Below are positions 34,959 through 44,104 of a stretch of 64,000 nucleotides of DNA, piece after piece. The notes under the pieces are model-generated. The model was not told the origin of the DNA and did not search any database. It worked only from the letters and a program-made list of their open reading frames with translations. The position numbers were made by a program, and so were the translations under genes. The DNA is from an uncultured Bacteroidales bacterium (lineage in GTDB: Bacteria; Bacteroidota; Bacteroidia; Bacteroidales; P3): NCBI GenBank assembly GCA_947168665.1, contig CAMVMX010000001.1:62001-126000 (forward strand), in the 5' to 3' direction. The first letter of the stretch is position 1. The number at the start of each line of letters is the position of its first letter.

Positions 34959-35780
34959 TTAATCATAATAACTGAAGGTGCGGACCACGGTGATGGAGTA
35001 CAGTTCCTTGCCTTCTATCACATCGATTGTGGCCTTGGTCCAGTTGCCGTGGTCGTCGTATTCGGTGTAGGTGTATTTATTGTGGGGCTGGACGGAGGGG
35101 CGGCCGCCGAGGTCTTGCTCCCAGTCGGAGAACCACGTCTCGGCAGTGTCGCCACGCTCGTCATAGCGGATGTGGAAATCGAGATAGCGTCCTTCGCCGG
35201 AGCGGGCACGATCCAGCCGGCCGTTGGCATCGTAGCGGTAACGCTCCACCCCGCCGGGGATGGACTTGAAGACTGGACGTCCCAACGAGTCGTAGCGGTA
35301 GACGGTGCTGTCGCCCCACGCATTCACCTGCACCAGCGGACGGCAGTGGTCGTCGCAGGTGATGAGGTTGTCCGTCACGCTGTTGCCGTCCTCGGTCTTG
35401 TTGATAAGGTATTCCGAGAATCCGGCGAGGCAACCAAGGCTGTCGTAGAAATACACCACGCTGTCCACACAGCAGCTGTTGGTCGACACGAAAAGGAGCA
35501 GCTTCCCGTCCGGGCCATAAGCATAACGCTCGTCGGTCTGGCCCTGCATGGCGGCAGTGGACATGGCGGTGCGCATTCCGGTCTCGTTGTAGGCCTCGGC
35601 GGTGGTGACGAATAGCTTGTGCTCGGCATCCATGCAGAAATCGGTGCGCTGCACGGTCTGCACCCGGCCCCGATAGCCCATCTGTCCAGTGCTGTAAAGA
35701 TGGGTGAACTCGCTCTGCCCCTGCGCGACAATGGGCAGCAGCAACAGGCAAATAGAAATGGTAGATCTTACATTCTTCAT
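34959..35780 (-). CDS. Secreted RHS/YD-repeat-like protein
   Basis: This 273-residue protein has a signal peptide (MKNVRSTISICLLLLPIVAQGQ) followed by repeated strands such as YAYGPDGKLLLF, VVYFYDSLGCLAGF, TVYRYDSLGRPVFK, ERYRYDANGRLDRA and IRYDERGDTAETW. The Y-YD-GR pattern is that of RHS/YD repeats, but in a short, single-domain form with no toxin tail. Such small proteins are common in Bacteroidota and their function is unknown. It is located just downstream of the decayed hipA, on the same strand. Confidence 0.75.
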   Translation of the reverse strand: MKNVRSTISICLLLLPIVAQGQSEFTHLYSTGQMGYRGRVQTVQRTDFCMDAEHKLFVTTAEAYNETGMRTAMSTAAMQGQTDERYAYGPDGKLLLFVSTNSCCVDSVVYFYDSLGCLAGFSEYLINKTEDGNSVTDNLITCDDHCRPLVQVNAWGDSTVYRYDSLGRPVFKSIPGGVERYRYDANGRLDRARSGEGRYLDFHIRYDERGDTAETWFSDWEQDLGGRPSVQPHNKYTYTEYDDHGNWTKATIDVIEGKELYSITVVRTFSYYD

Positions 35781-35787
35781 TTTTGAA

Positions 35788-36131
35788 TCATTGTAATGTA
35801 AAACAGCGATATTGAAATGATAACCTATAGTTTCTCTTCAACTCATCCGACAGGAATGAGCGTTCTATCAATTCAAGTGCAAGCGTGGATTCTTTGGCAA
35901 AGGCATCAATCTCACGTCTGACCAATCTGTCCGGCAAGCCAATCCTACCGCCAAATTCCACGAGAACGGAAACAGGTAGTCGGACTTGTATTCCTCATTC
36001 CTCAACGGCATAGTGAGACATACGGGCGCTCCCGTATAATCATCTTTATAGGAGAATGTGAAACGCCTGCTGTCATCCTCCCGAAGGATGCCCGCCTCCA
36101 TGCCGTTTACATACACCTTACCTTGTCTCAT
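35788..36131 (-). pseudogene. hipA toxin relic with a large internal deletion
   Basis: The 5' part reads MRQGKVYVNGMEAGILREDD...NEEYKSDYLFPF, the HipA N-terminal subdomain. Directly after it, in a different frame, the DNA encodes EFGGRIGLPDRLVRREIDAFAKESTLALELIERSFLSDELKRNYR..., which looks like the C-terminal helix region of HipA and ends at 35788. The kinase core, several hundred residues long in intact HipA, is missing. The 87-residue track ORF (35868-36131) is therefore an N-terminal fragment with an out-of-frame tail. The start overlaps the hipB stop, as in normal hipBA operons. Confidence 0.8.
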
Positions 36132-36339
36132 ATTCCATCACTTTAGGTTTCACATCTAATTGTAGTCCTATGGTGTCAAGAATGGCCAGCAATGTGGCAA
36201 TTTGTGGGTTTCCTTCGCCCCGTTCAATTGCAACAAGGGTGTTGACAGCAACCCCCGAAAGCTCAGAAACCGTGCGCTGGTTTACCCCCAGCACGGCACG
36301 CCGCTCTTTAATAATCTGCCCGATTTCATTCAAGTCCAT
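36118..36339 (-). CDS. hipB: HipB-like XRE family antitoxin
   Basis: This 73-residue HTH_3 protein, MDLNEIGQIIKERRAVLGVNQRTVSELSGVAVNTLVAIERGEGNPQIATLLAILDTIGL, is a full-length HipB-type regulator. It would bind its own promoter and neutralise HipA. The track starts at 36369, but a promoter box covers that codon, so ATG 36339 is chosen. The partner toxin is broken by deletion, so the gene may survive only as a repressor. Confidence 0.85.
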   Translation of the reverse strand: MDLNEIGQIIKERRAVLGVNQRTVSELSGVAVNTLVAIERGEGNPQIATLLAILDTIGLQLDVKPKVMEYETR

Positions 36340-36365
36340 AATACCATTATATTGCGATTTCCGCT

Positions 36366-36374
36366 GCAAAAGTA
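36366..36374 (-). promoter_or_regulatory. Promoter -7 box for hipB
   Basis: The minus strand reads TACTTTTGC, 26 nt upstream of the chosen hipB ATG and overlapping the alternative start at 36369. Confidence 0.6.
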
Positions 36375-36506: not shown

Positions 36507-36562
36507 TTTTATTAAATCAACCCCCTCTTCCGCATTTCAAAGAAGCACATTGAATCACTATT

Positions 36563-37423
36563 TTATATGACACTATTTAGAAATTCATCACGTTTACGCT
36601 CCCATGTTGTTTCTTTAGGTTGCTTTAGTCCAAACATATCTGTAAGTTTGTCCTTTAATAGATTCATATGAGCATATGCTTTCTTTGCATTCACTTTAAC
36701 AGAAAGTACACTTTGCCCTACAACACCTTTCATATCTTCAAATTCCATATCTTTTGTAAGGAAAGAACAACCATCAGACTTTAGCACCCACGCAGCTCCC
36801 ATCTCGTTCAAAGAAACAGGACTTTTAAAATAACGTGGCGACTGGATAAATATTACAAAAAGTTCATGAGTCTCAAATAACTTACGCAAACCTTCAAATA
36901 TGTCCTGTCCCAACTTGATGCCATATTCTGGGATAGAACTACAAAATAGATTTGTTCCATTAAATCCAAGGCTTTCAAGAAGAGACACAAGTGCCGTTAC
37001 AAAGTCCTCGTCATCATGAGAATGACTAATAAAAATCATTGGGGACTTGGATGAAAGTCCGTTATCCTCAGATTTGTTCAGCTGCCTTTTCATATTTTCA
37101 CCCTTTACTAATGCATTTAAGTAAGAAATATCCCGTTGGAGTTCAGATTTTAAATCTTCCCGGAAATCTCGATAGAAAAGTCTATTTATTCCTCGGCTTG
37201 GAAGGTTATTGACCTCTTGAGAGTCTTTACCATAAAGAATAGCTAACAATTGCTCTATTTCCATCTCCAAATCATCTGCCTTTCTTGATAAAGTCCTTAT
37301 TAGAGATTCATCATACTTTATTCCAAATGGACTATGCTTTCCATCAGGCATTTTTCCAACTTCAACGATTAAATCCTTCGCAAGTTCTATCTGATTATTC
37401 AAAAATTCCTCAGTTTGTATCAT
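36563..37423 (-). CDS. TIR-domain protein
   Basis: This 286-residue protein has a helical N-terminus of about 125 residues and a TIR domain at about residues 128-225. The domain shows PMIFISHSHDDEDFVTALVSLLESLG, the loop NLFCSSIPEYGIKLGQDIFEGL and SPVSLNEMGAAWVL, where Glu207 sits at the position of the NAD-hydrolase glutamate of enzymatic TIRs. Bacterial TIR proteins deplete NAD+ or make cyclic ADP-ribose signals in phage defence (Thoeris, SPARTA and others). The gene is visibly AT-rich. It lies downstream of a Sel1 gene on the same strand, with a probable promoter of its own. Confidence 0.85.
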   Translation of the reverse strand: MIQTEEFLNNQIELAKDLIVEVGKMPDGKHSPFGIKYDESLIRTLSRKADDLEMEIEQLLAILYGKDSQEVNNLPSRGINRLFYRDFREDLKSELQRDISYLNALVKGENMKRQLNKSEDNGLSSKSPMIFISHSHDDEDFVTALVSLLESLGFNGTNLFCSSIPEYGIKLGQDIFEGLRKLFETHELFVIFIQSPRYFKSPVSLNEMGAAWVLKSDGCSFLTKDMEFEDMKGVVGQSVLSVKVNAKKAYAHMNLLKDKLTDMFGLKQPKETTWERKRDEFLNSVI

Positions 37424-37485
37424 TTTAGATTTATGTATTATTTATTTATTTTTTTAACTATTTGGATAATAATATTTCTTCACAT

Positions 37486-37493
37486 CAAAAGTA
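37486..37493 (-). promoter_or_regulatory. Possible promoter -7 box for the TIR gene
   Basis: The minus strand reads TACTTTTG, 62 nt upstream of the TIR ATG, with a TTG about 17 nt further upstream. This suggests that the TIR gene can be transcribed independently. Confidence 0.45.
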
Positions 37494-37558
37494 TTTATAT
37501 ATTTAATTATCAAGCATAAAATTCAAACTTAATCGTAGTCGGAGATGTAAAGTTTTTT

Positions 37559-38857
37559 TCATCTTTTCTTATAATAAACACGCATCCAACCGTCCCATGC
37601 ATCGCCTTTCATACCAAAATGATGCTTTGTTGATTTCATATACCAAGTTAGAGCCTCATCATAATCTTCACGTCTTTCATAATACCAACCAAGATTGTAT
37701 TGTGCATCGGCATGCCCTTGTTCTGCAGCCCTATGAAACCACTCAACTGCATCTTTATTACCATCCATCCAATAGAAACAACCCCCAAGATAATTTTGAG
37801 CATCTGTATGTCCCTGTTCAGCAGCCAAACGAAACCACTTTTTTGCCTCCTCCCAATCATGCTTCATACCAATACCTCTCATACAACATAATCCAAGTGA
37901 ACATTGCGCATTAGCATGTCCCTGCTCAGCAGCCTTTTGATACCACTCTGTCGCCTCTTTCATTTTTTTTAATAGTACACAAATACTTTTTTGATAATTA
38001 TTGACATCTGGAACAAACACTCTGTGGGATGGTAGATGATACTTTGCTACTTCAAATTCTGTCATATCAGATTTTTGTCCCACAGTCTGGTACCATTCTA
38101 TTACTTCTTTTATGTCACGTTTTACTCCTTTGTAATCAACCTTGTAGATCAAACATCCAAGATTGTATTGAGCATCGGCATATCCTTGCGCTGCTGCCTT
38201 TCTAAATAGCTCTGCAGCCTTTTCTTCGTTATTCTTATTACCATAATCTACACCAGTGTCTCCATCCAAGAAAGGGCTACTTTTAAAATAACACAAACCA
38301 AGACTGTTTTGGGCATCAACGTGGTCTTGCTTCGCTGCCTTACTATACAATCTTACTGCCCTTCTCCTGTTCTTCTTTACAAGATCGCCATTATAATAAC
38401 ATACACCTAGATTATACTGAGCATCAGCATACTTCTGTCTCGCCGACTTGCGATACCATTTAACAGCCTCCTTTGGATTCTGTTTCACACCAATTCCATA
38501 ATGGTATCTTTTTGCTAATAAAAAACGAGATTCAGAATTTTTCCGTTCAGCTAATAGCATATCTCTCAGCAGTTCTGATGAATCATTATTTAAGCCAAAA
38601 AGTATCTTCTCTAACTTTATCCAATATTCTTTATCACAATAAGTATTATACTCCACTTGATAAAGTAACTGACATTGCTTATTCATGTTCTTAATACCAA
38701 TGAAATGTAAGGAGATCTCTTCCTTTTCGTAGACGCTTACGTCTTTATGCATTTTGAGGTTGAAATAGGTGCCGGGCTTGGCAATGCCTTTTTCCTCGTC
38801 GAAGAGGTAGACGCGGCATTCTACCTCGGTTTTGATATGTAGTACTGATGTTCCCAT
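37559..38857 (-). CDS. Sel1-repeat (SLR) protein
   Basis: This 432-residue protein has an N-terminal region of about 100 residues (MGTSVLHIKTEVECRVYLFDEEKGIAKPGTYFNL...) of unknown type, then about seven Sel1-like repeats such as EAVKWYRKSARQKYADAQYNLGVCYYNG, KAAELFRKAAAQGYADAQYNLGCLIY and EAKKWFRLAAEQGHTDAQNYLGGCFY. SLR proteins are scaffolds and no catalytic motif is visible. It starts 11 nt after the YhcG-like nuclease stop, so the two are cotranscribed, and precedes the TIR gene by 135 nt. It may act as sensor or adaptor for one of them; this is inference. Confidence 0.88.
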   Translation of the reverse strand: MGTSVLHIKTEVECRVYLFDEEKGIAKPGTYFNLKMHKDVSVYEKEEISLHFIGIKNMNKQCQLLYQVEYNTYCDKEYWIKLEKILFGLNNDSSELLRDMLLAERKNSESRFLLAKRYHYGIGVKQNPKEAVKWYRKSARQKYADAQYNLGVCYYNGDLVKKNRRRAVRLYSKAAKQDHVDAQNSLGLCYFKSSPFLDGDTGVDYGNKNNEEKAAELFRKAAAQGYADAQYNLGCLIYKVDYKGVKRDIKEVIEWYQTVGQKSDMTEFEVAKYHLPSHRVFVPDVNNYQKSICVLLKKMKEATEWYQKAAEQGHANAQCSLGLCCMRGIGMKHDWEEAKKWFRLAAEQGHTDAQNYLGGCFYWMDGNKDAVEWFHRAAEQGHADAQYNLGWYYERREDYDEALTWYMKSTKHHFGMKGDAWDGWMRVYYKKR

Positions 38858-38868
38858 TTTCTTACAAT

Positions 38869-39903
38869 TTATTCATTTTCTACTTTTGTTTCATTCGCTC
38901 TTGCCAGACGTTTCACCTCTTCCACTTCGGCTTGTAGCTGCTCGGTGGTAGGAAGATAGAGTTGGTATTGGCTGGCAAGAATGGTGTTGTTGTCCTCGGG
39001 TAAAGCCATTCGTACCATTGTATCATTTTTGCGAGTGCAGAGAAGGATGCCTATGGTAGGATTCTCTCCTGCGACACGCTCCGTGCGGTCATAGTAGTTC
39101 ACATACATCTGCAACTGGCCAAGGTCTTGGTGTGTCAGTTCCCCTGTCTTCAACTCCACCACGACAAAGCATCGTAATAGGCGATTGTAGAATACCAAAT
39201 CGATGAAAAACTCATCGTCTTCCAGCAGGATTCGTTTCTGTCTTGCCACAAAAGAGAACCCCTTCCCCATTTCGAGCATAAACTCAGCAATATGGGATAT
39301 GATGGCTTGTTCCAAATCACGCTCATAATAAGATGCTTGTGGTTTAAGCCCGAGAAACTCTAACACCATGGGGTCTTTAACAATCTCTGTTGGGGATTCG
39401 GGGATACGCTCCTTGCGAGCCACGGACAACACCGACTCTTTATCGTTGCTCATGAGTAGTCGTTCGTACAATAGGGAGTCTATCTGTCGCTTCAGCTCTC
39501 GCCCAGTCCATGCGTTGTTTACCGCTTCTAACTCATAGTACTCACGTTTGTCGGGGTCGGATATTTGCATAAGTAGTCGATACTGAGCCCAATTCAATTG
39601 CGACCGCACTGCGGACGCAATTGGATATTCTCTATAAAACTGACGTGCACGCTCCAACTGACGATGACCAAATCCGCTACCATATTCTGGTTCCAAACGC
39701 AGGGCAAGGTTCTTGATAAGGTATGAGCCATAGTCAGCTCGTTCCTTCCCTTGTTGCTCCTCCTCAAAGATGCGCTTGCCTAATTGCCAATACATCTGCA
39801 CACGACAGAAATCCACATTGCGAACAGCAGTGGCACGGGCATTGTTAATAATGGAGCGTATGTCGGACACAAATGTCTCTTGCATGGTTGTAAGTGTATT
39901 CAT
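38869..39903 (-). CDS. YhcG/DUF1016 family PD-(D/E)XK nuclease
   Basis: This 344-residue protein has the DUF1016 N-terminal half (YWQLGKRIFEEEQQGKERADYGSYLIKNLALRLEPEYGSGFGHRQLERARQFY) and a PD-(D/E)XK nuclease core: FFIDLVFYNRLLRCFVVVELKTG with Asp235, Glu250 and Lys252. The family is widespread in mobile and defence-associated gene clusters and often sits near restriction-modification loci, although none is seen here. It is 27 nt downstream of the AAA/DUF4143 gene and 11 nt upstream of the Sel1 gene. Confidence 0.9.
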   Translation of the reverse strand: MNTLTTMQETFVSDIRSIINNARATAVRNVDFCRVQMYWQLGKRIFEEEQQGKERADYGSYLIKNLALRLEPEYGSGFGHRQLERARQFYREYPIASAVRSQLNWAQYRLLMQISDPDKREYYELEAVNNAWTGRELKRQIDSLLYERLLMSNDKESVLSVARKERIPESPTEIVKDPMVLEFLGLKPQASYYERDLEQAIISHIAEFMLEMGKGFSFVARQKRILLEDDEFFIDLVFYNRLLRCFVVVELKTGELTHQDLGQLQMYVNYYDRTERVAGENPTIGILLCTRKNDTMVRMALPEDNNTILASQYQLYLPTTEQLQAEVEEVKRLARANETKVENE

Positions 39904-39930
39904 AATAGTAGGTATGATGTTCCCATGGTA

Positions 39931-41232
39931 TTATTGGTTATTGTCTTTGATTAGTTTTTCTACATTGTAGAGTGGCACGTTCTCCATCCAGTCTTGGTCT
40001 TTGTAGGGCAATGTGGAGAATCGCACGCCTTTGAGGTCGGGGTTTTTCTCTATGAAGGTGCGGAGCGACTTGGAATGGACATTCGCCTCAGCCTTTACCT
40101 CGATAGGCAGTATACGATGTTCTGCCTGCACGATGAAGTCTACCTCCATCTGCGAATCATTAGTTGCGTAATAGTGGATGGGGAGAGCAGAAGGCACCAT
40201 CTGCGACAGCACATATTGCTCCGAAAAGGATCCTTTGTATTCTGAAAAGGCGTTGTCGCCCAACAACACATCCTTTGCCGGCGCATCCATCTGTGCTCCG
40301 AGCAGTCCCACATCGTTCATATACAGCTTGAATACCGAAGGCTCTTCATAGAAACGCAACGGCATCTTGGGCGTACTGACGCGCGTGACCTTATACACCA
40401 GTCCTGCATCTAACAGCCATTGAATGGCAAGCAGGTAGTCGCTGGCTCGACTTCCCGGTTTCACATCTGAGTATTTGAACTTCTTGTTCTCTTTTGCCAG
40501 CTGCTGCGGGACGGCATCCCACACCATAGCGATGCGCTCTGCCTCGCTCCGCGACACATGCTTGGAGAAGTCTTTGCGGTAGTCTGCCAGTATCTGTTTC
40601 TGAATCTTGCGTACCTCGTGGGGGTTGCCCTCTTCTGCAAAGGACTTCACCGCTGCCGGCATTCCTCCCACATAATAGTACTGCCGCAGCAGTTCGATGA
40701 AGAAACTGTTGAGTGAACTGGTGGAGGAGGAATCACCATTCTGCAACATCTCGGCCGCCTGTTCCTTTCCCATGGCCATCACAAACTCGGTGAACGACAT
40801 GGGATAGAGGTTCATCATATCCACCTTCCCCACAGGGAAAGAAACACCCTGATGCAGCGATATGCCCAACAGGGAGCCAGCCACTATTACATGGTATTCT
40901 GGAGCATTCTCACAAAAATATTTCAATGCCGTCAGGGCACGCGGATATTCTTGTATCTCATCAAGGACAATCAAAGTAGAACCCGCTGCAATGGATTCAC
41001 CCGAGACTGCCGACAGGGCAGTCACCATACGACGGGTATCAAAGTCCTTAAAGACCTCCTCAATCTGTGGGGTGCTCTCACAGTTGATGTACGCCGTGTT
41101 GGAATATTCCTTTCTCCCAAATTCCCGGATAATCCAAGTTTTTCCCACTTGACGCGCCCCATTTAAGATAAGAGGCTTTCTTCCGCTCCTACACTTCCAT
41201 TTAAGCAAATCATTATATATCAGTCGTTCCAT
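39931..41232 (-). CDS. AAA_14/DUF4143 ATP-binding protein
   Basis: This 433-residue protein has Walker A LNGARQVGKTWII (GARQVGKT at 25-32), the Walker B-like LIVLDEIQEYPRALTALKYFCENAPEYHVIVAGSLLG, and a C-terminal DUF4143 domain that ends with VDFIVQAEHRILPIEVKAE. This part is nuclease-like (D-x-n-(D/E)-x-K) in many family members. Such proteins are abundant in Bacteroidales; their function is unsettled and some are proposed to belong to DNA-related or competition systems. It is first in the co-oriented accessory cluster and is preceded by a promoter set in a 33-bp repeat. Confidence 0.92.
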   Translation of the reverse strand: MERLIYNDLLKWKCRSGRKPLILNGARQVGKTWIIREFGRKEYSNTAYINCESTPQIEEVFKDFDTRRMVTALSAVSGESIAAGSTLIVLDEIQEYPRALTALKYFCENAPEYHVIVAGSLLGISLHQGVSFPVGKVDMMNLYPMSFTEFVMAMGKEQAAEMLQNGDSSSTSSLNSFFIELLRQYYYVGGMPAAVKSFAEEGNPHEVRKIQKQILADYRKDFSKHVSRSEAERIAMVWDAVPQQLAKENKKFKYSDVKPGSRASDYLLAIQWLLDAGLVYKVTRVSTPKMPLRFYEEPSVFKLYMNDVGLLGAQMDAPAKDVLLGDNAFSEYKGSFSEQYVLSQMVPSALPIHYYATNDSQMEVDFIVQAEHRILPIEVKAEANVHSKSLRTFIEKNPDLKGVRFSTLPYKDQDWMENVPLYNVEKLIKDNNQ

Positions 41233-41242
41233 AACATTAATC

Positions 41243-41374
41243 TACATTTTTTCAGACGTATTCACGATGCAAAGATACATTTTTTTGGACGAATAATGGA
41301 AGAAAAACTACATTTTTTCAGACGACCAACGGGGCAGAAACTACATTTTTTCGGACGAACGCCTGTCGTTGTTA
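41243..41374. repeat. Four copies of a 33-bp period repeat over the AAA/DUF4143 promoter
   Basis: The core TACATTTTTTcaGACGaa begins at 41243, 41276, 41309 and 41342, exactly 33 bp apart. Cores are about 18 nt and well conserved; the rest of each period varies. On the minus strand each copy ends in AAAAAATGTA, and the second carries the actual promoter box TATCTTTGC, so the other three look like decayed or alternative promoter units or operators. Confidence 0.8.
41269..41277 (-). promoter_or_regulatory. Promoter -7 box for the accessory operon
   Basis: The minus strand reads TATCTTTGC, 36 nt before the AAA/DUF4143 ATG at 41232, inside the 33-bp repeat. Confidence 0.65.
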
Positions 41375-41431: not shown

Positions 41432-44104
41432 TCAACCCAAGGCCTCAATCTGGGCCTTGATGGCGGCTATCTTGCTTTCGGCGTCGGCTTTCTTCTGGCG
41501 CTCGACGGCGACAACTTTCTCGGGGGCTCCGTTGACGAATTTCTCGTTGGAGAGTTTCTTCATGACGGAGGCGAGGAAGCCTTCGGCGTATTTGAGCTCG
41601 TCGTTGAGTTTCTGGAGTTCAGCCTCTTTGTCGATGTTGAGGCTGACGGAGACGAAGCACTCGGTGGTACCGACCATGAAGCTGAGGGCGCCCTCGACTT
41701 TGTCGGAGACGGTCTCAATCTTGGAGACGCTGGCCAGTTTGCAGATAATGCCGTTGAACATGGCCGGGCACTGGCCTTTGATATAGAGGTCGAGCTGTTC
41801 CTTGGGTGAGAGGCCTTTGCTGTTGCGGAGGTTGCGGACACCGGCAATGATGTCGCGGGCCAGGGAGAAGTCGTCGAGCATACGCTGGTCGAAGAAGACG
41901 CTGTGGGGCATGTGCTGCACCATGATGCTGGCGCCTTCGGGACGGTCGGAGAGGGCGTGCCATATCTCCTCGGTGACGAAGGGCATGAAGGGATGCAGGA
42001 TGCGCATGAGGCGGTCGAAGACGGCGATGGTGGAGTCGTAGGTCTCGCGGTCGATGGGTGTGCCGTAAGCGGGTTTGATCATTTCGAGGTACCAGGAGCA
42101 GAAGTCGTCCCAGACGAGTTTGTAGCTCTTCATGAGGGCTTCGCTGAGGCGGAAGTCGTCGAAATCGCGTTCGATTTCTTCCAGCACCTGCGCCATACGC
42201 ATCTCCATCCACTGGACACTGACGGCGTTGTCGTAGCTCTGCTTGAGGTCGTCGCTCACTTCCCAGCCCTTGACCAGACGAAGGGCGTTCCAAATCTTGT
42301 TGGAGAAATTGCGGCCTTGCTCGCAAATGCTCTCGTCAAAGGGGATGTCGTTGCCCGCTGGAGCGGTGAGGAGCATGCCCATACGCACGCCGTCGGCACC
42401 GTATTTGTTGATAAGTTCGATGGGGTCGGGGCTGTTGCCAAGACTCTTGGACATCTTGCGACCCAGTTTGTCGCGGACAATACCGGTGAAGTAGACGTGG
42501 TGGAAAGGCACCTCGTGGCGGTATTCCTCACCGGCCATAATCATCCGGGCCACCCAGAAGAAGATGATGTCGGGGGCGGTGATGAGGGTGTCGGTGGGAT
42601 AGTAATATTTAATCTCGTCGTTGTCGGGATTGCGGATGCCGTCAAAGAGGCTGATGGGCCAAAGCCAGCTGCTGAACCAGGTATCGAGAACGTCCTCGTC
42701 CTGACGGAGCTGGTCGGGGGTGGAGAGGGCACCGGGGTGCTTGGCATTGGCCAGGGTGTAGGCCTCGTCGCGAGTGGTGGCCACGACGACTTCGGTCTTG
42801 CCGTCGACATCATAATAATAAGCCGGGATGCGGTGACCCCACCAGAGCTGACGGCTGATGCACCAGTCTTTGATGTTCTCTAACCAGTGGCGGTAGGTGT
42901 TTTTGAATTTGGCGGGGTGGAACTGGATGGTGTCATCCTCCACCACTTCGAGGGCCTTCTTGGCCACATCGGACATGCGCATGAACCACTGCGTGGAGAG
43001 TTTGGGCTCGATGACGGCGTCAGTACGCTCGGAGTGACCCACCTTGTTGGTGTAGTCTTCAATCTTCTCGATAAGGCCTGCCTCCTCGAGGTCTTTGACA
43101 ATCTGTTTGCGGCAGGCGAAGCGATCCATACCGGCATACTGCATTCCTTTGTCGTTGAGAGTGCCGTTGTCGTTGAAGATGTCGATGGTGTCGAGGTTGT
43201 ATTTGAGGCCGAGATTGTAGTCGTTGATATCGTGGGCAGGTGTGATTTTCAGCGCACCGGTGCCGAACTCACGGTCGACATACTCATCCATGATAATCTG
43301 CACACTGCGCCCCACGCCAGGGACGACGACACGCTGGCCTTTGAGGGCTGCGTAGCGGGGGTCGTCGGGATGGACACAGACGGCTGTATCGCCGAGGATG
43401 GTCTCGGGACGAGTGGTGGCCACAACGATATACTGCCCTTTCTCATTCTGCTTGATGCCGCTTTCCTCGCCTGTGGGGAGTGCGGGGCCATCAATATAAT
43501 AGCGCAGGTAGAAGAGCTTGCCGTGGCTCTCCTTGTAGATTACCTCCTCGTCGCTGACGGCGGTGAGGGCTTTGGGGTCCCAGTTGACCATGCGCACACC
43601 GCGATAGATAAGCCCCTTGTTGTAGAGGTCGACAAAAACACGGATGACGCTCTCGTAACGGATGTCGTCCATGGTGAAGGCGGTGCGGTCCCAGTCGCAG
43701 GAGGCTCCCAGTTTGCGGAGCTGCTTGAGGATGATGCCGCCATATTTCTCTTTCCACTCCCATGCATACTTCATATACTCGTCGCGGGAGAGGTCGCGCT
43801 TGTCGATGCCGCGCTCTTTGAGCATGGCCACCACCTTGGCCTCGGTGGAGATGGAGGCGTGGTCCGTGCCGGGCACCCAGCAGGCATTCAACCCAAGCAT
43901 ACGTGCACGGCGGATGAGGACATCCTGGATGGTGTTGTTGAGCATGTGGCCCATGTGCAGCACACCCGTCACATTGGGCGGGGGGATGACAATGGTGTAC
44001 GACTTGCGGTGGTCGGGTTCGGAATGAAAGAATTTCTTTTCCAGCCAGAAGGAGTACCATTTCTCCTCTACGATGCTGGGGTCGTATTTCGGTGCAAGAC
44101 TCAT
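41432..44104 (-). CDS. valS: Valine-tRNA ligase
   Basis: This 890-residue class I aminoacyl-tRNA synthetase has HMGH at 50-53 in [16 protein letters not shown] (the HIGH motif), the editing domain ([14 protein letters not shown]) and KMSKS in [15 protein letters not shown]. The C-terminal coiled-coil arm ([39 protein letters not shown]) is typical of ValRS. Length is normal. It ends about 60 nt from the first 33-bp repeat unit and is preceded by the korB terminator, so it is probably a single-gene unit. Confidence 0.97.

Follow-up and report, generated by a model that had tools for sequence, protein, structure and literature searches.

Genes and features of the block

The window, that is the whole stretch of DNA analysed, comprises 64,000 nucleotides from an uncultured Bacteroidales bacterium. 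Between valS and a hipBA locus it holds a block of four co-oriented minus-strand genes, and the features of the block and its flanks are as follows.

41432-44104, minus strand: valS, the fixed flank of the island
41239-41357, minus strand: 33-nt-spaced, four-copy repeat array over the AAA promoter
41338-41357, 41305-41324, 41272-41291 and 41239-41258: the GTCYGAAAAAATGTAGTTT copies
39931-41232, minus strand: AAA_14/DUF4143 gene (AAA), 433 aa (ORF call and Pfam)
39915-39926, minus strand: ATGGGAACATCA copy on the upstream side of YhcG
38869-39903, minus strand: YhcG/DUF1016 PD-(D/E)XK nuclease gene, 344 aa (ORF call and Pfam)
38846-38857: second ATGGGAACATCA copy, which is the start of the Sel1-type gene
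37559-38857, minus strand: NTD-Sel1 repeat gene, 432 aa (ORF call and Pfam)
36549-38752, minus strand: foreign segment (Sel1 body and TIR), from homology breakpoints and low G+C
36563-37423, minus strand: SpbK-type TIR gene, 286 aa (ORF call and Pfam)
36512-36548, minus strand: exonuclease remnant, last 12 codons, CFFEMRKRGLI*
36118-36369, minus strand: hipB-like antitoxin gene, the other edge of the island (Pfam)
35868-36131, minus strand: hipA N-terminal remnant (Pfam)

The ORF coordinates bear out the arrangement given in the preliminary description, with gaps of 27, 11 and 135 nt between the four genes, and the residues named there (D235, E250 and K252 of YhcG and E207 of the TIR protein) are all present in the translations. 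The products matched, above the Pfam cut-offs, AAA_14 and DUF4143; DUF1016_N and YhcG_C; eight Sel1 repeats; and TIR_2, respectively. When PADLOC models were used, AAA and YhcG gave full-length matches to the candidate models PDC-S01 (2.1e-177) and PDC-S02 (1.6e-141) and the TIR protein matched spbK (1.4e-56); no PADLOC model matched the Sel1 protein. PDC-S01 and PDC-S02 are listed as single-gene candidates without a mechanism, and a promoter array is not in their description.

The G+C content drops from about 58% to 35-46% across 36-40 kb. The block had been said to be richer in AT than its neighbours, which holds strongly for the Sel1-TIR part only, the AAA gene itself having 51% G+C. The adjoining hipBA locus is decayed, as had been noted, with hipB intact and hipA reduced to an 87-aa start; the full hipA is retained in sister genome G079. 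Three features had been overlooked, namely the 33-nt-spaced array in front of AAA, the ATGGGAACATCA copies on either side of YhcG and what is left of the exonuclease downstream of TIR. A gene for an RHS/YD-repeat-like secreted protein adjoins the island (window positions 34959-35780), and one or two tandem copies are found there in the sisters.

Distribution of the four families and assembly of the block

The same 190 family genomes were searched with each of the four proteins, and 295 genomes of the order served as a further sample. The block had been put forward as a candidate new four-gene system; among the 190 same-family genomes, the four families were found together only here, and that proposal was not upheld. 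TIR and Sel1 genes co-occurred nowhere else, either in the same-family or the same-order genomes or in a genome-contig scan with the Sel1 NTD. Relatives of TIR (E ≤ 1e-10) are present in 5/190 family genomes, the other four with different neighbours, and a full-length Sel1 relative (E ≤ 1e-40) only here among the 190. AAA relatives (59/190 genomes) and YhcG relatives (58/190) mostly lie apart from each other; YhcG adjoins AAA only in G000, G081 and G122 of this sample and in L228 from the genome-contig scan, and its identity of 95-98% across the AAA-adjacent cases points to one lineage. The order-level search returned three further TIR relatives (the best, in G569, 50% identical over the full length), none of them adjoining an NTD-Sel1 gene. 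No SpbK-type neighbour was found for the order-level NTD matches, nor a SpbK-type TIR neighbour at the inspected ones of the 16 loci from the genome-contig scan with the NTD profile.

Co-function of all four genes is not supported by these comparisons; the AAA-YhcG-NTD trio is kept in four genomes, and some co-function may exist there. A single functional system, in which AAA senses, YhcG cuts, Sel1 adapts and TIR kills, would fit the shared orientation and the short gaps, and the position of TIR and Sel1 within one foreign segment would allow for their joint arrival. Such a system is nevertheless very improbable, given the confinement of the foursome to this genome among those searched and the lack of adjacent TIR and Sel1 relatives elsewhere; in addition, the 135-nt gap holds a TAnnTTTG box (37486-37493), a weak sign that could be TIR's own promoter.

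The block is instead probably a mosaic at a valS-linked defence hotspot and not a single machine; synteny and breakpoints in G081, G015, G122, G082 and L228 show that its parts were acquired separately, each with its own history. AAA with its upstream array lies next to valS in G081, G015 and G082, and in G122 the entire block is at another chromosomal location. YhcG is flanked by the two ATGGGAACATCA copies; in G015, which lacks YhcG, AAA runs directly into a single copy. Insertion of YhcG and its deletion between the repeats both fit these sequences, and since G015 is the closer genome by valS (98% identity to the window, as against 88% for G081), a loss in G015 is no less likely than an insertion. 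A DUF4268 protein (Pfam) stands in YhcG's position in G082.

Only the first ~35 codons of the Sel1 gene are conserved with the sisters, and the remainder is foreign. Homology of the window to G081, G122 and L228 ends at 38753, at about codon 35, and restarts at 36548, 15 nt past the TIR stop. The sister counterpart of this gene, an MGTS gene, runs on into Sel1 or LRR repeats and then into an RNase_T exonuclease, which is absent from the window gene; in L228, the order AAA-YhcG-NTD-Sel1-exonuclease is uninterrupted. From the breakpoints and the surviving exonuclease end, it follows that the exonuclease gave way to a 2.2-kb foreign segment made up of the Sel1 body and TIR. The Sel1 gene would then be what remains of a truncated NTD-Sel1-exonuclease effector, possibly without activity. 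The patchwork is recent. The sister genomes amount to a near step-by-step record of its formation, including the change from exonuclease to SpbK-type TIR, and the cluster is a caution that co-oriented defence-like genes may be patchwork.

The same exchange could be read as an effector swap, in which AAA, YhcG and the NTD/repeat-exonuclease form a three-gene unit and here TIR has taken the place of the exonuclease, with NTD-Sel1 kept as an adaptor. The recombination exactly at the exonuclease end is in keeping with this, and the order AAA-YhcG-NTD-(Sel1/LRR)-exonuclease recurs in G081, G122 (split) and L228, but every case of the trio belongs to the one lineage with 95-98% identity, and NTD proteins occur elsewhere without AAA or YhcG. 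The unit is also not constant, G015 having AAA alone of the pair and G082 having DUF4268 in place of YhcG. A match to the NTD between a TIR-like start and repeats within one L220 protein would favour the swap, but it is weak (E 1.7e-6), and the swap is unlikely on the whole. The AlphaFold model of the NTD (pLDDT 59) was too poor for use.

The protein at L220:2680-3843 (a Coprobacter MAG; also L237) appears to combine a TIR-like start, an NTD-like segment (weak match) and WG-like repeats, the domains being named by eye. At L211:4128-8317 (G121), a SIR2-like protein, also named by eye, lies directly 5' of an NTD-Sel1 protein that weakly matches PDDEXK.

The same array-valS site holds McrB- and McrC-like genes in G050 and G079 and a kinase-LRR protein together with DarT in G012, and the place is therefore taken as a defence hotspot; the McrBC restriction system is absent from the window. 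The far edge is hipBA in G079 and G012, and the AAA gene of G119 has an internal deletion. The suggestion that the block lies in a defence island thus stands, with a TIR protein of the SpbK family, AAA and YhcG matching PDC-S01 and PDC-S02, and sisters having McrBC or DarT there.

The TIR protein and SpbK

A phmmer search against solved structures gave one TIR match, SpbK 9phb (E 8.4e-17, residues 91-281). E207 aligns with the catalytic E192 of SpbK, and N206, G209 and W212 correspond to N191, G194 and W197 of its CC-interface (inter-strand); SpbK residue numbering is that of PMC12847820, and the 24-residue offset of the 9phb PDB chain was deduced from residue matches. SpbK of ICEBs1 (Bacillus subtilis) and the window protein also share the C-terminal helix region WERxxxxF and a similar length. 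The window protein has an N-terminal part too, a putative sensor, but no alignment to SpbK was obtained for its residues 1-90. The SpbK N-terminal domain docks on the phage portal YonE; as the N-terminal ~90 residues are unalignable, the phage trigger is probably another one. The surroundings differ as well, SpbK sitting in an ICE and the window TIR in a Bacteroidales island.

The TIR protein is thus a candidate SpbK-type NADase and a new family member, SpbK being a one-gene system. By analogy, it most likely works on its own as an abortive-infection NADase and answers to another trigger: its divergent N-terminal domain would sense a phage protein, and the TIR domains would then cluster and destroy NAD+, so that the cell aborts infection.

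Thoeris was considered and rejected. There is some likeness to its TIR protein, ThsB, but the matches are weak (E 2e-5 or worse), the spbK model is far better, and no ThsA partner lies beside the TIR gene. A genome-contig scan for close TIR relatives returned none, and in plasmid and phage collections only distant matches (~41% identity or less) were found.

The promoter array of AAA_14/DUF4143 genes

The array is made up of four ~20-nt GTCYGAAAAAATGTAGTTT copies at an exact spacing of 33 nt and covers the AAA promoter, the -7 box TATCTTTG (41270-41277) being in the third copy. The motif of the window array is unique within its genome and is retained in the sisters. Upstream regions were collected for 69 AAA relatives (44% identity and more), of which 50 passed a redundancy filter at 85% identity, and an array was scored where significant repeats with a lag of 31-34 nt occurred within 170 nt upstream. 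Such repeats were found for 43/50 non-redundant AAA relatives and 2/241 control genes (Fisher p 1.7e-41), and the mean autocorrelation of the AAA upstream regions has a peak at lag 33 and another at 66. When the paired motif at 32-34 nt was searched, 74 sites were obtained in 35/190 genomes, with 0 for the reversed control; the inspected sites lay mostly just 5' of AAA genes, with some in front of AAA remnants or exchanged cargo. The sequence TAnnTTTGY occurs at ≤120 nt from the start in 63/69 AAA genes (controls, 30/197), and in 37 AAA genes the -7 box shares its TA with the end of the repeat motif. Dinucleotide shuffles, together with the control genes and the search with the reversed motif, ruled out chance repeats in AT-rich DNA.

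The closer two AAA proteins are in sequence, the more alike are the variable 5' parts of their motifs (Mantel r 0.45, p ≤ 0.0005), in part through shared descent. Between paralogues of one genome, the motifs resemble each other no more than between unrelated pairs (six pairs only), which disfavours, within the limits of so few pairs, a host-wide regulator as the only protein reading the arrays. Another type of array, ACAAAAACTCCGACTAAAAAGTGTA, was found in G016, G081, G090, G109, G124, G183 and G184 (e.g. L120, L126, L131), and in one AAA clade it is inverted relative to the gene.

The AAA protein has the Walker A sequence GARQVGKT and a PD-(D/E)XK-like C-terminal part (EVDF...PIEVKA). In its AlphaFold model (pLDDT 91), the foldseek neighbours are AAA+ proteins, including DNA-bound Orc1/Cdc6, with TM-scores ≤0.44, a weak structural similarity on which the predicted DNA binding rests. 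A sequence search of the PDB found no match to YhcG, and its one match to AAA looked like chance. We infer from the arrays and the model that AAA may read its own array and repress its own gene. The ATPase, whose AAA+ fold resembles that of ORC/Cdc6 in the structure comparison, would bind the array as an oligomer and keep a potentially harmful ATPase-nuclease scarce, and invading DNA or another ligand would draw it off the array and lift the repression. Phased repeats over a gene's own promoter are also seen in the operator arrays of self-regulated DNA-binding proteins; the difference here is their attachment to an AAA+ ATPase-nuclease family. A literature search on the AAA_14/DUF4143 family and promoter arrays found nothing relevant. 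The genes are common, yet almost undescribed in the searchable literature, and a gene-specific conserved promoter array offers a direct handle on the AAA ligand and on the timing of the switch-on. These arrays are the part most deserving follow-up.

In 148 genomes of the phylum, half of which have at least one AAA_14/DUF4143 gene, 33-nt arrays are largely absent from the DUF4143 sample. A palindrome or short direct repeat was found just 5' of the ATG in 22/30 DUF4143 genes as against 8/68 controls (p 3e-9), and these elements (L136-L164) are palindromes, e.g. TATGCAATTTAGGAATTAAATTCCTAAATTGCATA, or 22-nt repeats.

The sequence GTCAACC...AGGGAAAGTCA, which is the end of an IS3-like element, lies just upstream of the array in several AAA genes. 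There are 27 copies, often at contig ends, in seven genomes that were selected for having it (G016, G052, G095, G099, G122, G147, G149; L239-L258), and one copy adjoins an rve transposase. When the copies by which the element was noticed were left out, an intact AAA_14 gene lay next to the facing IS end at 7/15 sites, six of the seven with DUF4143; by our own estimate, the chance of this is about 6e-11 if AAA_14 genes are taken as at most 1% of genes. The end always faces the AAA_14/DUF4143 gene, and the genes belong to quite different subfamilies. Either targeted insertion or gene mobilisation could explain this placement.

The fixed orientation of the IS3-like end upstream of several AAA_14/DUF4143 genes also speaks for another explanation of the array, namely that it is a recombination or transposon target marking the edge of the island and not an operator. 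Homology to the moved copies ends at the array (41351-41359), and arrays persist with other cargo. They remain in G050, G079 and G012, where AAA was lost; a pure autorepressor site need not persist without AAA, though the array also carries the promoter. Against this reading, the array is helically phased and in most genes overlaps both the core promoter and the region near the start, the motifs of paralogues differ, and DUF4143 genes elsewhere in the phylum have palindromes or 22-nt repeats in the corresponding position. We regard the target-site explanation as rather unlikely.

Autoregulation and mobility may be combined. As a tentative proposal, which is possible but falls short of probable, AAA_14/DUF4143 proteins (COG1373) could form a large family of self-addressed ATPase-nucleases that bind their own operators at the gene start, the operators serving also as landing sites for an IS3-like element that would help to spread the genes and the adjoining defence cargo. 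The proposed operators would, with the same reserve, be 33-nt-phased arrays in this Bacteroidales family and palindromes or 22-nt repeats elsewhere.
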